Assembly (NCBI GenBank): GCA_003647765.1
Contig: QMNM01000116.1
Span: forward strand, 1 to 5,775
Direction: 5' to 3'
Source of the DNA: Candidatus Cloacimonadota bacterium
GTDB lineage: Bacteria > Cloacimonadota > Cloacimonadia > JGIOTU-2 > B8-G9
Length of the DNA stretch: 5,775 bases
Numbering within the stretch: position 1 is the stretch's first letter; each line of letters begins with the position of its first letter. The notes beneath the pieces were generated by a model. It saw only the letters and a list, made by a program, of their open reading frames with translations, had not been told where the DNA came from and did no database searches. The translations under genes were made by a program, and so were the position numbers. This document shows, piece by piece, positions 1-5,775 of this stretch.

Positions 1-795
1 CTCAAGTGCCTTAGATGTTGCTTCCTTACTCCACCAGGGAACTTTTATTTTTACCTCTTTCCCTTCTATCTTTCTCACTATCCCATAGAAAGCATCACTT
101 AATAGTCCCATCACAGGACCCAGGCATAAACCTACTCCCAGGAATTCATCACTTACCTGAGCAGCTTCCAGGAATTTCCCTATCCATTCTCTCTTAGTAT
201 GTAAGGCTTTTAACGCAGCTTTGAATCCTGATTGTTCTGCAAGTTTTGCTATTTCTCTAACTCTCTCTATGTTCTTTGTCAGTTTATACAGCCCTTTAAA
301 TCTACCAAGAGCTGCGTCCATGAGGTGGCCTGCCGCCCTCTTGGCCCCCATCGGGCCAAGAGGCAATGAGGCGGCAGCATTGAATAAATCAGCAACAGAA
401 CTTGCAAGCTCTCCTGCCGCTATGAGTGGTGCAGTTACAGCAGCTACAGAAGGAACAGCAACAGTAACTACTTCTAAAGCAGTTGTAGCTGTAGAGATTA
501 CATCTTCCACATCGTCTATCCAGTTAATAATCCTCTGAAGTTTTTTGCCCCATTCTGGAATAGGACTTTTGGATATCCTCTTTGCTATTTCTCTTCTTCT
601 TTCAAGTTCTTCTAAGCCTTCTTTAGTAAACTTGCTGTAGTCTCTTTCACTATGAGGCTTTTTAAGCTCTTCTAACTCTTCGTCATTAAACTGATAGCGG
701 GGTTTTATGTGAATGATGTCAGTCAGCCCAGGAATGACAATTTCGTAAGTCTGCCGATCTTTGTAAGTATTTTCAAATCTTTTCTTTTCGGTCAT
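1..795 (-). CDS. Alanine-rich hydrophobic protein, candidate membrane-active or DNA-delivery virion protein (3' end beyond window)
   Basis: This open frame runs from an ATG at 795 to the left edge without a stop, giving 265 visible residues; the C-terminus is outside the window. Residues 1-90 are charged and helical (for example the E/K-rich stretch 38-70). Residues 104-145 form a long Ala/Val-rich stretch of low charge, with V-A-V-P-S-V-A-A-V and A-P-L-I-A-A-G. Residues 217-240 are a second Gly/Leu-rich hydrophobic stretch (G-V-G-L-C-L-G-P-V-M-G-L-L), followed by a basic segment and P-W-W near 253-255. The start overlaps the stop of the M15 gene as ATGA, so the two are probably translationally coupled; no separate good Shine-Dalgarno is seen. 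I recognise no family. The composition resembles virion proteins that insert into membranes during genome delivery, but it could equally be an internal membrane or scaffold-like protein. A strong stem-loop lies inside it at 330-377. Reading frame certain, function speculative. Confidence 0.85.
   Translation of the reverse strand, partial: MTEKKRFENTYKDRQTYEIVIPGLTDIIHIKPRYQFNDEELEELKKPHSERDYSKFTKEGLEELERRREIAKRISKSPIPEWGKKLQRIINWIDDVEDVISTATTALEVVTVAVPSVAAVTAPLIAAGELASSVADLFNAAASLPLGPMGAKRAAGHLMDAALGRFKGLYKLTKNIERVREIAKLAEQSGFKAALKALHTKREWIGKFLEAAQVSDEFLGVGLCLGPVMGLLSDAFYGIVRKIEGKEVKIKVPWWSKEATSKALE
330..377. repeat. Strong GC-rich interrupted inverted repeat (stem-loop)
   Basis: The outer arms are 330-337 (ctgccgcc) and 370-377 (ggcggcag), 8 perfect pairs. 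The inner arms are 338-347 (ctcttggccc) and 353-362 (gggccaagag), 10 perfect pairs. The apical loop is 5 bases (348-352), and one 7-base bulge lies at 363-369. The stem totals 18 Watson-Crick pairs in 48 bases and is much richer in G+C than its surroundings. It lies within codons for an Ala/Gly-rich part of the protein, roughly residues 140-155. No T-run follows on either strand, so an intrinsic terminator is unlikely. Possible roles are an RNA structure, a protein-binding site, or a packaging or replication signal; the sequence does not choose between them. Confidence 0.8.
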
Positions 796-1085
796 CTTTT
801 GGGGTCATATTCAATGTGGATGTGGTCTTTCTCTACTACGATGTCATAATCCTTTCCCAGTAACAACTTCAGAGCGTTCACCACAGCATCTACATTCCCG
901 CGAGGAAGCCTCACATCAACAGCAAGATGTGCATAGTGAAGCGATGAAGGCATGTGATCTCCTTCGTAAGTGCTTGTTATAACTGCTTCCTCCCCAAAAT
1001 CTTTAAAAGCCTGGTCAATCAGATTAAGAGCTCGTCTCATAGGCCTCTTTAACTTGCTTATGTCTACTCCTAATTTAAGCAACAT
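792..1085 (-). CDS. M15-type zinc D,D- or L,D-peptidase, candidate lysin
   Basis: This 97-residue protein carries the sequence pattern of the M15 (hedgehog/DD-peptidase) fold. S-S-L-H50 with A-V-D57 matches S-x-H-x6-D, and E85-K-D-H88-I-H90-I-E matches the C-terminal catalytic and zinc-binding stretch. H50, D57 and a histidine of the H-x-H would bind zinc, with an acidic residue as general base. Enzymes of this family cut peptide cross-links or stems of peptidoglycan, and phages use them as endolysins or virion entry enzymes. At 97 residues it is shorter than most family members and has no wall-binding domain, signal peptide or membrane segment, so export would need help or it would act from the virion. 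The start is supported by GAGGAGG about 8 bases upstream, embedded in the end of the preceding gene, whose stop lies 3 bases away. Its stop overlaps the next start as ATGA. Confidence 0.82.
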   Translation of the reverse strand: MLLKLGVDISKLKRPMRRALNLIDQAFKDFGEEAVITSTYEGDHMPSSLHYAHLAVDVRLPRGNVDAVVNALKLLLGKDYDIVVEKDHIHIEYDPKR

Positions 1086-1088
1086 ATC

Positions 1089-1529
1089 TCATACCTCCTC
1101 AATGTTTATGTTGAATTTCTTGAGAACATAACGAGTATCTGCATTTACAGTTTCGCATACAACCAAAGGTATATATTCCGCCTGGAAAGGATCTATATCT
1201 CTCATCAGCGTTATGTAAGTGATTATCTGCCCTACACATCTCAGATGTGCATGCTGAGTAACTTCTATGACTAAAAACTTCTTTTCTTTCGTAAAAGCAA
1301 CAGCATCAATCCTGACAGCAGCAGAATACATCCATGATGAGACTATTCTATCTGGCAAGTGGTTTGGCGGGTTCTGGATTGTGATTGCAAAGTTGTAAAG
1401 AACATACTCAAGCTCATCTTGATGCTGTGCAAGCCATCTATGCCAGACAGGAACATCTGGCGGGAGCATCTGAGGCGGTCTTCCTCGCCAGGAGGGGTCT
1501 TTCTTTACAGTGTAATACCACCATGACAT
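1089..1529 (-). CDS. PD-(D/E)XK nuclease-like fold protein, possibly lacking the catalytic lysine
   Basis: This is a 146-residue protein. R-I-D75-A-V-A-F, then a charged turn, then F-L-V-I-E89-V-T91 followed by Q101-I-I-T-Y105 resembles the RecB/Cas4-like PD-(D/E)XK core: a D on one strand, E-x-K on the next, then Q-x3-Y on the helix. Here the usual lysine position is threonine (T91), with histidines at 93 and 95. A further strand (Y-I-P-L-V-V-C, about 119-125) and a C-terminal strand complete an alpha/beta fold. The N-terminus is Trp/Pro-rich. The loss of lysine suggests an inactive or altered nuclease, or a DNA-binding or structural role; a true divergent nuclease is also possible. The gene starts one base after the stop of the preceding small gene and has only a weak purine-rich ribosome site, so it probably depends on coupling. 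It sits between putative virion genes and the lysin. Confidence 0.7.
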   Translation of the reverse strand: MSWWYYTVKKDPSWRGRPPQMLPPDVPVWHRWLAQHQDELEYVLYNFAITIQNPPNHLPDRIVSSWMYSAAVRIDAVAFTKEKKFLVIEVTQHAHLRCVGQIITYITLMRDIDPFQAEYIPLVVCETVNADTRYVLKKFNINIEEV

Positions 1530-1530
1530 C

Positions 1531-1707
1531 TTATTCTTCTACTTCTAAAAGCACTTTCAGTATCTCAACAAAGATGTCGTCAAGTGGATTGTTTGTCTTC
1601 TTTGCATGATGCTCAAGCTGCTTTACAAAATTCTGTGCAGCTGCTTTTAGCTCTGGAGTTATAACTTTTAAAATCTTCGGTAGCATTTTCTCTATCAACT
1701 TGAACAT
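1531..1707 (-). CDS. Small amphipathic helical protein, 58 residues
   Basis: This is a small protein of unknown function. From the ATG at 1707 it has 58 residues and looks almost entirely helical: M-F-K-L-I-E-K-M-L-P-K-I-L-K-V-I, a central Lys/Ala helix, a turn with N-N-P-L-D-D, and a final I-F-V-E-I-L-K-V-L-L-E-V helix. Hydrophobic residues are spaced to form amphipathic helices rather than a clean membrane span. The alternative ATG at 1722 would add five residues, but the best ribosome site (GGAGG at 1713-1717) lies 5 bases before 1707 and overlaps the codons just after the 1722 start, so 1707 is preferred. It could be a minor capsid, membrane-associated or holin-like component; none of these is shown by the sequence. 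Its stop is one base from the start of the 146-residue gene. Confidence 0.75.
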   Translation of the reverse strand: MFKLIEKMLPKILKVITPELKAAAQNFVKQLEHHAKKTNNPLDDIFVEILKVLLEVEE

Positions 1708-1712
1708 CTCAA

Positions 1713-1720
1713 CCTCCCCC
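1713..1720 (-). promoter_or_regulatory. Ribosome binding site deciding the start at 1707
   Basis: The minus strand reads GGGGGAGG here, with GGAGG ending 5 bases before the ATG at 1707. The upstream in-frame ATG at 1722 has only a distant GGAGAA about 12 bases before it and shares a base with this site. This favours the shorter 58-residue product. Confidence 0.75.
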
Positions 1721-1731
1721 ATCTCGTAAAT

Positions 1732-3030
1732 TTATTCTCCTACAAAGTAATAAAGAATTCCAGGAGCGGTTTCTGTAGCATTTGTGCATGAAGCATTAAT
1801 TTGAACAGCTTCTATTTCTGCGTCAAAGCTTTGTCCTTCATCAAGATAAATCGTTTGCATATCTGAAATGTTTTTCCCAGACAGAAAATCATACAAAGGC
1901 AGTATTTTAATTTCCCAACTGCCAGCTTTAGCATAAAAAGAGACATTCTTACTGACAATACCACTTACAACTGTTCGCTCTGAAGTATCAGTAACTTCAA
2001 GTTTTCCGCTTGTGTATGTAATAGCTGCTGAAGTTATTCGCTGTCTTGCCCTAACATCAGCTACAGGTCGCACAGAACCAAGTGGACTTGGCATTATCTG
2101 CACTATCTTTGTCTCATCAGGTCTTGCAAGATTAATTGCAGATAGAAATTCTGGTGGCTTTTGGATTTTAGAAATATCAGGAGAAACGCCAGGAGGTTTT
2201 TCTTTGAATATATCCCGTGCTTCTTTTGCTGTTTCAGGATAAGGTATCAGCTTATCAGGAACAGGTGGAGCTGGTATAGGTTGAGCTTCTGTTATCTCTA
2301 TAAGTCTATTGTCTTCAAGTGTTTCTTCTATTTTTCTTAGAGGATTGTAATAGTTCAAGAAAGGTATCTCTTCTACAGATATCTCTGCTAATGAGCAAAA
2401 TAGATGTATTCTTGCATAAGCTTCTCCTGCTGCTTTTACTACTTCAAGTGTCAGTGTATCGTTTTTTCTCAAAAAAGTCTGAAGAGGTAGAAAATTAAGT
2501 AAAGGAAGACCTAAAAAGGGATAATACACAAAATCAGCAATCTCTTCTTCATTCTTAAAAAGCTTATATCTCGTTTCTTCAAATCCTCCTAGATCAAGCA
2601 AAACCCCAAGAATAAACAATTTTGTCTCTTGTTTATGCGTATATAAAGCTACTTTCTTTTCAATGTCTAAAGCTTCCCCGAATGCATCTGCTGGTCTTAC
2701 ATGCAAATGTGTCTTTTTCTCAAGAAAGCTTTTAATCTCTGCTTCTTTATAAAAAATTGCAGCAGCATAATCATATGCAGGATCGTCTTCTGTTTCTATT
2801 ACAACCCGCACTCCCTTTTTACTTTTTGCAAAGCAAGGTAAAAAAGTGTTGAATTCATCTATTCCGTAAGGTCTTCTGACAGAACTCCATAGTCCAGGAT
2901 AAACTTCAACTTTCATTGAAACCGAGCGGGGGCAACTGATAAACCCAAGAACTTCATCTTCACCATGTCTTAAATATACCGTTTTTGTCGTATTAGCTTG
3001 CATGTTTATCAAAAATGTTGCTACTCTCAT
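1732..3030 (-). CDS. Multidomain beta-rich protein with proline-rich hinge, candidate spike/vertex protein
   Basis: This 432-residue protein falls into beta-rich segments. A first segment (about 12-95) ends in K-K-G-V-R-V-V-I-E. A second (about 125-215) ends in R-K-N-D-T-L-T-L-E-V-V. A proline-rich linker spans about 250-295 (P-I-P-A-P-P-V-P and later K-P-P). A C-terminal segment (about 330-432) contains S-F-Y-A-K-A-G-S-W-E-I-K-I-L and ends with E-G-Q-S-F-D-A-E-I-E and a hydrophobic strand. These patterns recall the jelly-roll-like strands of the two genes just upstream. No transmembrane segment or signal peptide is evident. Multidomain beta proteins with a proline hinge beside capsid genes often form vertex spikes or receptor-binding proteins, which is my inference here. 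GAGGAG lies 6 bases before the start, overlapping the end of the upstream gene 3 bases away. Gene certain, role moderate to low. Confidence 0.8.
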   Translation of the reverse strand: MRVATFLINMQANTTKTVYLRHGEDEVLGFISCPRSVSMKVEVYPGLWSSVRRPYGIDEFNTFLPCFAKSKKGVRVVIETEDDPAYDYAAAIFYKEAEIKSFLEKKTHLHVRPADAFGEALDIEKKVALYTHKQETKLFILGVLLDLGGFEETRYKLFKNEEEIADFVYYPFLGLPLLNFLPLQTFLRKNDTLTLEVVKAAGEAYARIHLFCSLAEISVEEIPFLNYYNPLRKIEETLEDNRLIEITEAQPIPAPPVPDKLIPYPETAKEARDIFKEKPPGVSPDISKIQKPPEFLSAINLARPDETKIVQIMPSPLGSVRPVADVRARQRITSAAITYTSGKLEVTDTSERTVVSGIVSKNVSFYAKAGSWEIKILPLYDFLSGKNISDMQTIYLDEGQSFDAEIEAVQINASCTNATETAPGILYYFVGE

Positions 3031-3033
3031 CTC

Positions 3034-3345
3034 CTACTCCTCATAAGCAAGTGTCATGTAGATTGTATGATCGTATCCTCCTACATCTTCTCCTCCTACC
3101 TCTACACTTTTAGGACCCGCAACTTCTATTTCTAATGGAATAAAATTTCCCTGGTTAATTGCAAATTCGCAAGGTATTTCTACAATTCTGTCTCCTTCTA
3201 TTTCTATAAAGCTCAGACAGTCACTTTCAGAAGTCCGCCCAAACCCTTTTAGAATAACCTTTTTTTCAGCAGGAAGTGTAAGGATTGTCTCTTTCTTACT
3301 CTGATTTGCTGGTATTGTTAACTTTGTGGTCTTATACCTTAACAT
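3034..3345 (-). CDS. Small single jelly-roll-like protein, candidate minor capsid/penton component
   Basis: This 103-residue protein looks almost entirely beta. Alternating hydrophobic strands are T-I-L-T-L (about 20-24), K-V-I-L-K-G-F, S-F-I-E-I-E, R-I-V-E-I, P-L-E-I-E-V (70-75) and T-I-Y-M-T-L (94-99), enough for one eight-stranded barrel. Residues 45-57 (S-F-I-E-I-E-G-D-R-I-V-E-I) resemble residues 41-55 of the upstream 303-residue protein (S-F-I-T-L-K-I-G-N-R-T-V). In both, a P-A-containing strand lies about 20 residues earlier and a polar turn plus strand follows. This suggests a shared module. In tailless viruses with jelly-roll capsids, a small single-barrel protein usually forms the pentameric vertex. 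The start has GGAGG 5 bases upstream, and the gap from the capsid gene is 25 bases. A short G-G-E/G-G turn repeat (V-G-G-E-D-V-G-G-Y) sits near 83-91. Gene strongly supported; function inferred. Confidence 0.85.
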   Translation of the reverse strand: MLRYKTTKLTIPANQSKKETILTLPAEKKVILKGFGRTSESDCLSFIEIEGDRIVEIPCEFAINQGNFIPLEIEVAGPKSVEVGGEDVGGYDHTIYMTLAYEE

Positions 3346-3370
3346 CTTTTCCTCCTCTCATATTTAATCA

Positions 3371-4282
3371 TTATTCAGGTTTTACTACTTTTCCTACCAG
3401 AGCAAAAACAATTTTTCCTGCTGGAGCACCTGAATTTTCCTCTACATAAAACTTAACTTCAACAGCCATTTCATCGCCTCTTCTAAAGATAAGAGGTTCT
3501 TCAAATATAAAGATGTCTCCTTTATCTCCTCTTGGGATAAATGGAAGTTCATTATTATCTCCTCCATACTTCTCATTAGCTGAACCACTTTCTGGTTGTT
3601 CAGCTTCTGTAACAAATCCTTCTTCATTAGGATGAAGAAGCAGCTCAGTTCCTTTCCATATTCTTATTGCTCTCTGTATTGCAAAAGCATCAGCTCCTCC
3701 TGCATATGTATTCTGGCTATAAGGCACAGTTCCTAACCCGTATAGGTGGAATTCATCGTAAGGGCACGCAACCTCTTCAAAAGGCCAGGAATGCATCTCT
3801 GCTGGGTTCAAGCACTTATCAAGTCTATACCAGTTTTCTGATGTAATATCATACTTATTAGTTCCATGTATGATTATAAGTCTTTCCCTTGCACTTTTCC
3901 CGTTTGGCATATCTTCTTTAATGTCTTCTGGATCTACTAATTTGAAATGCATTCCTATTACTGTCGTTGCTGAACTCCCTTGCACTAATATTTTTTCTCC
4001 TTCTGCTACCGGGAACTCTGTAGGCAATCCAACTTGCTTTAATGCTCTCAGCAATGACTTATATGATGAACCTGAGGAGGGAGGTAAAGCTTGATTCATA
4101 ATATGCGGACCTGTTTGAAGGTATAACACAGTCCTGTTCCCAATCTTAAGTGTTATAAAAGAGCGGTTATTAGCAAAGCTGAAAATATCCGTAATAATAG
4201 CTCCTGATCCAGCTGGTGGAGTATACTCAAGTTTATCAGTATCTCTTACTACTATTTCCTGGAAAGCTTTCTTTACTGCCAT
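3371..4282 (-). CDS. Beta-rich protein, candidate double jelly-roll major capsid protein
   Basis: This 303-residue protein is dominated by short beta strands with little helix. The N-terminal half (about 5-116) has P-P-A-G-S-G-A-I-I-T-D-I-F, S-F-I-T-L-K-I-G-N-R-T-V-L-Y-L and, after one short helix (74-84), F-P-V-A-E-G-E-K-I-L-V with I-G-M-H-F-K-L-V. After a charged linker (117-133) the C-terminal half (about 134-303) has its own strands and closes with F-R-R-G-D-E-M-A-V-E-V-K-F and K-I-V-F-A-L-V-G-K-V-V. Both halves therefore end with the same turn-strand-loop-strand pattern, as expected for two stacked jelly rolls. The length matches small double-barrel capsid proteins, which run from roughly 270 to 400 residues. 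Its ribosome site is the best in the window: TAAGGAGGT, 8 bases upstream and using the stop of the previous gene. An alternative is a single-barrel large capsid protein with an inserted domain. An HK97 fold looks unlikely from the lack of long helices. Gene certain, capsid role inferred. Confidence 0.85.
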   Translation of the reverse strand: MAVKKAFQEIVVRDTDKLEYTPPAGSGAIITDIFSFANNRSFITLKIGNRTVLYLQTGPHIMNQALPPSSGSSYKSLLRALKQVGLPTEFPVAEGEKILVQGSSATTVIGMHFKLVDPEDIKEDMPNGKSARERLIIIHGTNKYDITSENWYRLDKCLNPAEMHSWPFEEVACPYDEFHLYGLGTVPYSQNTYAGGADAFAIQRAIRIWKGTELLLHPNEEGFVTEAEQPESGSANEKYGGDNNELPFIPRGDKGDIFIFEEPLIFRRGDEMAVEVKFYVEENSGAPAGKIVFALVGKVVKPE

Positions 4283-4290
4283 CTCTATTT

Positions 4291-4299
4291 ACCTCCTTA
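4291..4299 (-). promoter_or_regulatory. Shine-Dalgarno overlapping the previous stop codon (capsid gene)
   Basis: The minus strand reads TAAGGAGGT. The TAA is the stop of the 142-residue gene and the AAGGAGGT is a near-ideal ribosome site 8 bases before the ATG at 4282. Terminating ribosomes would be placed directly on the next start, which fits high coupled expression of the putative capsid protein. Confidence 0.8.
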
Positions 4300-4725
4300 C
4301 TTCATCATTTCAAGCTTTGCTTTATGAAGAGCCATAGCTATAGCCTGCACTCTCTGTATGTTCTTCACATCACCACGAGGACCACGAGGAGGTAGTTCTG
4401 TTTTTTCAATGATGTCTCTGTATGGAGCAAAATTCTTTTCATAGTCTGGTCTCGCAATCATTACTCCTTCGCTAAATCTTGCTGGACCTTTAGTTAAAGT
4501 CCTTTCCTGCCATCTCTTTGTTCCTGCCTTGCTTACTCCGCTCGCATATCTCCCCTCATTAGCCGCCTTTATTACCGCTTCTTTGTAAATTGGATCAGCT
4601 TTTACAGCCTCTTCTGCCCAATCTTTCTTAGGGTCTTTCACACCTTCCTGGTAATCTGTAGCCCTCTGAGGGGTAACAGTTGCCCACTTTTCTGCAATTT
4701 TCTGTATTGACCTTATCTTTGCCAT
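4297..4725 (-). CDS. Basic 142-residue protein upstream of capsid gene, function unknown
   Basis: I do not recognise a named family. The protein is mostly helical and rich in Lys, Arg and Ala. The N-terminal half has two charged helices (about 1-15 and 34-58). The middle holds R-W-Q-E-R-T-L-T-K-G-P-A-R-F (71-84). The C-terminal part has N-F-A-P-Y-R-D-I-I (98-106), a L-P-P-R-G-P-R-G-D loop (111-119) and a final helix with R-V-Q-A-I-A-M-A-L-H (125-134). The conspicuous aromatic, glycine and proline positions suggest a conserved viral family. Its place directly before the putative capsid gene and its positive charge fit a small structural, scaffold or nucleic-acid-binding virion protein. The start has TAAGGAGGT 6 bases upstream of ATG within an A-rich 30-base spacer. 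Its stop codon forms part of the next gene's ribosome site. Confidence 0.83.
   Translation of the reverse strand: MAKIRSIQKIAEKWATVTPQRATDYQEGVKDPKKDWAEEAVKADPIYKEAVIKAANEGRYASGVSKAGTKRWQERTLTKGPARFSEGVMIARPDYEKNFAPYRDIIEKTELPPRGPRGDVKNIQRVQAIAMALHKAKLEMMK
4372..4389. repeat. Nine-base tandem duplication
   Basis: The unit accacgagg occurs twice in a row (4372-4380 and 4381-4389). In the 142-residue protein this encodes the repeated P-R-G of the P-P-R-G-P-R-G-D loop. It is probably a small in-frame slippage duplication. Confidence 0.6.
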
Positions 4726-4755: not shown

Positions 4756-4917
4756 TTAACTTGGAGCAGCTACAGGTGTAGCTGCTTCTTCTTCTGATTT
4801 GAACTCTATCGTAACCTGAACTATTCCCGTGGGTAGCTTTTCTACTTTCACAATTCTACATCCCAATGGCGTTAGTAAAGCTGATATTCTTTGCAGCTTA
4901 ATTGTATCTTTATCCAT
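4756..4917 (-). CDS. Small 53-residue protein, function unknown
   Basis: An ATG at 4917 opens a 53-codon frame ending in TAA at 4756-4758. It begins M-D-K-D-T-I-K-L-Q-R-I-S-A-L-L, continues with two probable strands (C-R-I-V-K-V-E and I-V-Q-V-T-I-E-F-K), and ends in an acidic then Ala/Pro-rich tail (S-E-E-E-A-A-T-P-V-A-A-P-S). The gene is supported by AAGGAGGG ending 6 bases before the start, by its fit in the space between two real genes (2 bases after the parB-like stop) and by the lack of any alternative gene here. The layout, a helix then a beta hairpin, suggests a compact folded domain with a disordered tail. No family is recognised. It might be a small regulator or a virion component. 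Confidence 0.75.
   Translation of the reverse strand: MDKDTIKLQRISALLTPLGCRIVKVEKLPTGIVQVTIEFKSEEEAATPVAAPS
4765..4786. repeat. Perfect inverted repeat (hairpin) at the end of the 53-residue gene
   Basis: The arms are 4765-4774 (agcagctaca) and 4777-4786 (tgtagctgct), separated by two bases; the practical loop is 4 to 6 bases. In the minus-strand transcript the hairpin is followed by an A-rich stretch rather than a U-run, so it is not a normal intrinsic terminator for these genes. It falls in the codons for the Ala/Pro-rich tail. It could protect or process the downstream structural-gene message or be an operator-like dyad, but some of the symmetry may come from repetitive Ala codons. Confidence 0.65.
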
Positions 4918-4919
4918 AC

Positions 4920-5775
4920 TTATCCCTCCTTGTTCTGGATTCCTGTATGAACTCGCATATCTTCCCTTCTAATCTCGCCAGTCTCCGTTCCACTTGCAAC
5001 ATCCATAATAGTAAAATCACCTCTATCCCTTTGCTGAGTATTTCCAATACTTCCACTTTCTTCCTCCTGCTGTAATTCTGCTTCTTTAACAGCTTTCATT
5101 AAGTGAAATCTACACTCCCTACATACGATTAATGTAGTCAACTTTTCGTATAGATACCTTCCCCCGCAAATCTGACACTGTCCGCGTGGTGGTTCACTTA
5201 TTGCTCTCTCAACCCTTTCTTCTACTTCATCTCCATATTCTTCGTCTATCCTTTTTGCTTCCTCGTATGTCGCAAGCCACATCTTTAAAGTGTTTGCTGA
5301 TACTTCTCCTGCCTCTGCTTGTTTTAGCCATCTCATCCTTGTTTCATCATCATCTACCTTGTCTAGCGTAAAAGCTGCGTCTATTGAGATCTTTCCTTCA
5401 TGAACTGCTTTTTGCAATTCAGGCTTGATGTTTAGCAAATCAAGCCTTTGTCTTACCCAGGATTTACTCCTCCCTACTATCCGAGCTAACGCACCTATCC
5501 CTAAGTTTCTTTTCTCTTGCAATTCTTTCAATTTACAAGCTTCTTCAATTGGGCTTAGATCTTTCCTCGCCGTGTTCTCTGTAAGCATTATTGAATCAAG
5601 AAGTTCCTCATCTGCTCTTTTAACTATGCAAGGTATCTTTTTTAATCCAGCGAGCTGACAAGCAAGCAAGCGTCTATGTCCTGCAACTACTTCATACTCG
5701 TCTTCTCCTACTTGCTTGACTGTGATCGGATTTATTAGCCCAACAGCCATGATACTTTCAGCAAGTTCGTATATA
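4920..5775 (-). CDS. ParB/Spo0J-like DNA-binding protein with C-terminal zinc ribbon (N-terminus beyond window)
   Basis: The frame stays open to the right edge. Codons upstream of the ATG at 5750 read Y-E-L-A-E-S-I and join G-L-I-N-P-I in the usual ParB box order, so the real start is outside the window. Counting from that ATG, A-G-H-R-R-L-L-A (23-30) and E-N-T-A-R-K-D-L-S-P-I-E (58-69) match the two nucleotide-binding motifs of the ParB CTPase fold. A helix-turn-helix follows (about 84-106, I-G-A-L-A-R-I-V-G-R-S-K-S-W-V) with the supporting helices of the KorB/Spo0J family. The C-terminal part has C192-x2-C195 and C210-x2-C213, a likely zinc ribbon, then a low-complexity polar tail. ParB proteins load onto parS sites and spread; in phages and plasmids they serve partition or gene regulation. 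No ParA is seen here. It is the first gene of the visible run and may regulate it. Confidence 0.93.
   Translation of the reverse strand, partial: IYELAESIMAVGLINPITVKQVGEDEYEVVAGHRRLLACQLAGLKKIPCIVKRADEELLDSIMLTENTARKDLSPIEEACKLKELQEKRNLGIGALARIVGRSKSWVRQRLDLLNIKPELQKAVHEGKISIDAAFTLDKVDDDETRMRWLKQAEAGEVSANTLKMWLATYEEAKRIDEEYGDEVEERVERAISEPPRGQCQICGGRYLYEKLTTLIVCRECRFHLMKAVKEAELQQEEESGSIGNTQQRDRGDFTIMDVASGTETGEIRREDMRVHTGIQNKEG
5421..5447. repeat. Nine-base inverted repeat inside the parB-like gene
   Basis: The arms aggcttgat (5421-5429) and atcaagcct (5439-5447) are perfect complements around a 9-base spacer. In a window of this size one such 9-base repeat is near what chance would give, so no function is claimed. 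It could be a self-binding operator for the encoded protein, although known parS sites have little or no spacer. Confidence 0.4.

Follow-up and report, generated by a model that had tools for sequence, protein, structure and literature searches.

A Cloacimonadota-binned contig with a putative, divergent major capsid protein matches small tailless viruses of the Odin group

Introduction

A 5,775-nucleotide contig from Candidatus Cloacimonadota raises the question of what kind of element it comes from and which of its genes may encode a capsid. The first-pass annotation had proposed a tailless virus in which three consecutive genes encode capsid proteins of jelly-roll type. We analyzed this whole stretch of DNA, hereafter the window, together with contigs that carry relatives of its genes.

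Results

The window is part of an element with ten genes on one strand

The 5775-bp window is the complete contig G000:C142 of a MAG that comprises 1.97 Mb in 360 contigs and is bacterial by its ribosomal genes. Ten tightly packed genes, all on the minus strand, fill it entirely, in the order g10 (ParB), g9, g8, g7, g6, g5, g4, g3, g2 (M15-like) and g1:

g1, 1..795, minus strand: at least 265 aa, truncated by the contig end; conserved in these elements, with hydrophobic segments
g2, 792..1085, minus strand: 97 aa; M15-type peptidase, candidate lysin
g3, 1089..1529, minus strand: 146 aa; PD-(D/E)XK-like, canonical Lys missing
g4, 1531..1722, minus strand: 63 aa; match to phrog_402 (unknown function), E 1.6e-5
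g5, 1732..3030, minus strand: 432 aa; proline-rich center between two other regions
g6, 3034..3345, minus strand: 103 aa; small protein, placed by position only
g7, 3371..4282, minus strand: 303 aa; member of a divergent family, putative major capsid protein
g8, 4297..4725, minus strand: 142 aa; basic, mostly helical, immediately before g7; putative cons1
g9, 4756..4917, minus strand: 53 aa; ORF only
g10, 4920..5774, minus strand: at least 284 aa, N-terminal end missing from the contig; ParB-like with a C-terminal CxxC..CxxC zinc ribbon

The element is incomplete, since a gene is truncated at each contig end and terminal repeats are absent. No contig of the same MAG carried the other half of g1, and a search of the window against this MAG also gave no spacer-like match (best E 0.018). 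The ORFs g5, g6 and g7 lie exactly where the first-pass annotation had placed its three capsid genes. Its description of them as almost purely beta-strand did not hold, as a crude propensity count gave 0.32-0.36 beta-like versus 0.35-0.39 helix-like windows. Pfam and PHROGs searches over the complete contig matched no tail, portal, terminase or HK97 family, confirming the earlier observation that tail, portal and terminase genes are absent. The same searches matched neither a packaging ATPase nor a replication gene or Rep family in this incomplete window, and an Rfam search gave no match.

The gene upstream of g7 uncovers a family of small elements

The product of g8 is basic (29 K+R versus 19 D+E). 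Its first homologue, 47% identical, was found on a 4.5-kb contig of another Cloacimonadota MAG; a genome of the same phylum (G114) includes a contig that is public as JACNIV010000145.1, Candidatus Cloacimonadota. Scanning the genome contigs with a two-sequence g8 alignment yielded seven loci, the 4.5-kb contig among them, in MAGs labelled Aenigmatarchaeota, Deltaproteobacteria, Planctomycetota, Desulfobacterales, "bacterium", Cloacimonadota and Chromatiales. The same Desulfobacterales MAG contributed further loci (four contigs), as did a second genome of the phylum of contig L018, which is itself binned to Aenigmatarchaeota. Altogether, the g8 family is present on contigs of at least eight other MAGs, with homologues 44-54% identical on contigs of 4-16 kb. 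On contigs this short, a bin label says little about the host.

In all g8 contigs examined (L017-L022, L024 and L036-L039), the next gene downstream encodes a protein of 260-370 aa, either complete or cut by the contig end, in the slot that g7 occupies in the window. By sequence, at least three families can be told apart among these slot proteins. The third comprises L024:1695-2489 and L039:2333-3136 (~31% mutual identity, BLASTP 4e-34), from contigs binned to Chromatiales and to the L018 phylum. Contigs that are long enough share the zinc-ribbon ParB, g3 and g1 with the window, and L020 also g2. Thus clear homologues of g1, g2, g3, g8 and g10 occur on small contigs, of 4-12 kb, from unrelated MAGs, broadly arranged and ordered as in the window. 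Known phages gave no tblastn match to g1, g5 or g8, nor to the slot protein or the g1 homologue of contig L019.

Several other features of these contigs were recorded. Four different g8-bearing contigs (L021, L036, L037 and L038, corresponding to C76, C254, C300 and C56) lie in the Desulfobacterales MAG HyVt-363 (G127), which suggests that one sample held several such viruses. Downstream of their capsid genes, L036 (4135-4842), L017 (3-692) and L024 (3748-4422) encode LamG/concanavalin-like proteins that are likely host-binding; the one in L036 matches Pfam Laminin_G_3 at 1.2e-25. In L018 (2697-2983), the gap between the g1 homologue and ParB contains a nested pair of near-perfect inverted repeats, of 31 and 28 nt, which could be an origin, a partition site or a terminator. 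L017 has a possible replication origin at 3684-4474, upstream of the structural genes, where AAAATGTGGATAACTTT-like sites recur together with 22-bp tandem repeats.

A circular relative encodes a predicted double jelly-roll protein in the capsid slot

Contig L019 carries identical ends of 223 bp (1-223 and 11586-11808) and is therefore circular, at 11,585 bp; this complete genome stands as an ordinary contig in a Deltaproteobacteria MAG. Four of the window's five conserved genes match it. Its ten main ORFs gave no terminase, portal, ATPase or Rep above the Pfam cut-off.

We modelled the 369-aa slot protein of L019 with AlphaFold2 using three relatives (pLDDT 57, pTM 0.61; residues 240-322 are unreliable). 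The best Foldseek matches of the model were PRD1 P3, the STIV major capsid protein (MCP) and PM2 P2, at E 2e-10 to 9e-10. VIA-align placed it closest to the STIV MCP (Z 23.6, rmsd 3.2, 274 aligned), followed by PRD1 P3 (Z 22.7), PM2 P2 (Z 19.2) and FLiP (Z 16.2). The L019 slot protein thus models as a double jelly-roll (DJR) MCP, which supports the proposal of a tailless virus with a jelly-roll protein in the capsid slot. Profile searches of the PDB by sequence with the L019 family gave chance matches only. The slot protein of L017 belongs to this family by profile comparison (hhalign E 1.1e-5) and is 303 aa long, the same length as g7.

g7 belongs to a divergent family that includes a protein of Altivir_6

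Directly downstream of g8, g7 sits in the slot where relatives encode a DJR MCP. It is homologous to the protein in the same slot of L018 (28% over 170 aa, BLASTP E 2.7e-18, and 9e-20 in another search), which the contig end cuts at 174 aa. It is also homologous to ORF3 of Altivir_6_ACLF (24% over 82%, E 1e-13), the single record of the phage collection to match g7 and an unannotated relative. These two proteins match each other at 4e-19, and the residues conserved in the family include DIKED/NGK-like and NPAE..PF motifs. The gene two positions upstream of ORF3, Altivir_6 ORF1, matches the g8 profile at 17.9 bits, a score reached by 0 of 5000 shuffles, while ORF2 is marginal, with 11 of 5000 shuffles scoring as high. 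With g7 homologues in L018 and Altivir_6 and the g8 match of ORF1, the g8-g7 pairing holds in three elements.

Beyond these, g7 had no sequence match in Pfam, PHROGs or the PDB. Direct searches with g7 found no homologue in 98 relatives and 124 same-phylum genomes (its own genome apart), in the genome contig collection or in 155 other genomes of the L018 phylum. No relative emerged from the viral contig collection when scanned with g7, g5, g1 and g8; one pattern match, L012, proved to be an unrelated tailed-phage contig. Between g7 and the L019 DJR family no relation was detectable (hhalign E 0.21), and a resemblance to the L024/L039 slot family, plausible by eye, gave an insignificant profile link (E 0.29). 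A single-sequence AlphaFold2 model of g7 reached pLDDT 33 and was left out of the fold search.

DJR proteins, such as that of FLiP, are known to diverge past sequence recognition (PMC5894146). From its position we strongly infer that g7 is a capsid protein; position and length, together with this known divergence, suggest that it is most likely a DJR major capsid protein.

The remaining genes resemble those of the relatives to different degrees

The product of g1, mostly helical, matches a 520-aa protein of L018 (29%, 3e-26) as well as proteins of L036 (2e-17) and L019 (7e-15), and is possibly a membrane or DNA-delivery protein. The short product of g2 matches Pfam M15_3 at 4.7e-4, below the cut-off, and an L020 protein at 41% identity (3e-18), and keeps intact SxHxxxxAxD and HxH motifs. 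In the M15-like protein at L020:553-843 (minus strand), the His and Asp of the SxHxxxxAxD motif, present in g2, are gone, so that protein may be inactive.

The nuclease-like g3 has matches in L019 (9e-22), L020 (2e-18) and L039 (1.9e-6); the L019 homologue hits Pfam NucS_C at 0.0084, and the L039 homologue (L039:1011-1463) keeps D..ExK and QxxxY. Where L039 and L024 have the canonical E-x-K, g3 reads IEV-[TA]-x, and judging from these residues the catalytic Lys seems to have been lost in the window-like branch of the family. The ParB domains of g10 score above the Pfam cut-off (ParB_N 2.8e-16, HTH_ParB 5.5e-15), and its similarity to proteins of L018 (8e-25), L019 (5e-24) and L020 (4e-22) extends through the zinc ribbon; the earlier pairing of the capsid genes with a ParB-like gene is thus borne out, and recurs in these three relatives.

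For the two other genes that had been put forward as jelly-roll capsid genes, that assignment is not supported. For g5, no homologue was found by tblastn in phages, in the viral contig scan, in the relatives or in Altivir_6; position and layout make it a possible spike or vertex protein. For g6, Altivir_6 and the relatives gave no sequence match; its place in the relatives is taken by proteins of 104-127 aa, and by position it is a possible minor capsid protein.

Discussion

The Odin group comprises DJR viruses whose MCP is structurally related to those of STIV and PM2 (Yutin et al. 2018, PMC5894146). In all its contigs a conserved small gene, cons1, precedes the MCP gene; the genomes, of 7-11 kb, lack a packaging ATPase and encode ParB, PD-(D/E)XK nucleases, a single jelly-roll protein and, sporadically, an M15 peptidase (PMC5894146). 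For the gene in the cons1 position, a role in packaging was suggested by Yutin et al. (PMC5894146). The suggestion in the first-pass annotation to search for an A32-like packaging ATPase would have misled, because this group is characteristically without one (PMC5894146). A further member, the Huginn virus of Odinarchaeum, was tied to its host by CRISPR spacers (PMC9246712). In the window g8 precedes g7, and its homologues precede the slot protein in all the g8 contigs examined; position, size and companion genes make g8 a putative cons1.

We therefore consider it highly probable that the window represents roughly half to two thirds of a small, tailless virus or provirus genome of Odin-group type, with g7 as its MCP and g8 as a packaging or assembly factor. 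That genome is probably dsDNA and, we infer, probably circular. The g7 protein would form an icosahedral shell. Located where a packaging ATPase gene would be expected, g8 probably gathers or condenses the genome and guides capsid assembly; being small, basic and helical, it is presumably not a motor. The shell would then assemble around the DNA or together with it, instead of being filled by an ATPase. The g1 protein may sit in a membrane or pass through it, g2 could lyse the bacterial wall as a lysin, its motifs being intact, g5 might serve as the spike, and the ParB of g10 would bind DNA for maintenance or regulation.

That g7 shares no sequence link with the DJR slot proteins, and that at least three slot families exist, would also fit a capsid protein of another fold, in an element that exchanged its capsid gene but retained g8 and the other genes. 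Such a protein could consist of two stacked single barrels, form a double Greek-key sandwich resembling Gp3 of the Charybdis elements, or build a two-protein shell with g6; Charybdis elements, which are small archaeal elements, do pair an unusual double beta-sandwich with a ~100-aa jelly-roll protein (PMC12324425). We find this unlikely, since DJR proteins can diverge past recognition, as in FLiP (PMC5894146), and g7 has the same slot and a similar length. A broader version, to which we likewise assign a low probability, takes the g7 family (the window, the Aenigmatarchaeota-binned contig, Altivir_6 and presumably Altivir_1) as a capsid protein of separate fold or separate origin that replaced the DJR protein while the upstream g8 was kept. 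In that case g8 would act as a portable module for packaging without an ATPase, common to different capsid types in both bacteria and DPANN archaea.

ParB genes are common on plasmids, and the presence of one here, with no replication gene or ATPase family matched, could also point to a plasmid or satellite in which g7 is a non-capsid surface or accessory protein. We regard this as very improbable: in relatives this place is occupied by a DJR MCP, the closest relatives with a name are putative lytic viruses of archaea (PMC8324899), and g7 is among the few genes common to the window and Altivir_6. We give hardly any credence to a tailed phage with its portal, terminase and tail genes beyond the contig ends. 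The contig does end inside genes, and g1 has a marginal tape-measure match (phrog_1107, E 0.61), but five genes match small contigs, four of them the circular L019 with its DJR MCP, and no terminase, portal or ATPase scores above the Pfam cut-off in the ten main ORFs of that genome.

If the window does stem from an Odin-group virus with g7 as its capsid protein, a group known almost only from sequence becomes tied to the Altivir_1/6 viruses of deep-subsurface Altiarchaea. Altivir_1 was visualized inside infected cells and has been associated with particles, yet its 2021 publication came without hallmark genes. ATPase-free DNA packaging of a small DJR virus would thereby become approachable in an imageable system, with g8 as a candidate factor. 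The g7 family would also be a capsid family missed by the standard libraries Pfam and PHROGs. The novelty lies in this divergent capsid family, which links the Cloacimonadota-binned window with a contig binned to Aenigmatarchaeota and with Altivir_1/6; the lineage itself had already been outlined. The earlier suggestion of a poorly described lineage accordingly stands for the g7 family and falls for the Odin group, described in 2018.

Comparison with known systems

The traits of Caudoviricetes (terminase, portal, HK97-fold MCP and tail) appear neither in the window nor in the main ORFs of L019. P23-77 and other Singelaviria have two adjacent single jelly-roll MCP genes and a packaging ATPase. 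Here g5, g6 and g7 gave no PHROG or Pfam match, g7 gave no PDB sequence match, and no ATPase was matched in the incomplete window. The two-capsid-protein alternative of this type, raised in the first-pass annotation, found no positive evidence, and a single DJR protein fills the slot in relatives. Charybdis elements, likened to the window by their description, are small and circular, lack an ATPase and combine a ~230-aa two-domain beta protein with a ~100-170-aa jelly-roll protein, but are 4.6 kb long and marine only, and their Gp3 is reported as a double Greek-key protein (PMC12324425). The FLiP group (ssDNA, DJR) shares with the window a small genome and the lack of a packaging ATPase; it differs in its M13-type rolling-circle Rep, seen neither in the incomplete window nor in the main ORFs of L019, and otherwise in gene content. 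STIV, PM2 and PRD1 share the DJR MCP fold with the modelled slot protein of the relative L019, but encode packaging ATPases and have no sequence similarity to the window.

Altivir_6_ACLF (BK059159.1) resembles the window in its g7 homologue, ORF3, and in the divergent g8-like ORF1 upstream. It differs in that its 4.6-kb record has no annotated counterpart of ParB, g3, g1 or g2, its g8 is extremely divergent and its other downstream genes are unrelated by sequence. It clusters with Altivir_1_MSI, a virus of Ca. Altiarchaeum that was visualized in Altiarchaea and judged lytic (PMC8324899); Altivir_1 has since been linked to particles of 53-65 nm, with a capsid gene proposed from AlphaFold models (PMC10504349).

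The Odin group comes closest. The window differs from the Odin-like relatives found here in that its contig is incomplete and g7 cannot be aligned with their DJR MCP. In common with the Odin group, the window and its relatives have a small gene before the capsid gene, a ParB, a PD-(D/E)XK-like protein that in the window is without the canonical Lys, an M15 peptidase, no packaging ATPase in the window or the ten main ORFs of L019, a genome that is probably small, judging from L019, and bins that are both archaeal and bacterial. By gene content and order, the window fits a piece of the genome of a small tailless virus, or provirus, of Odin-group type.
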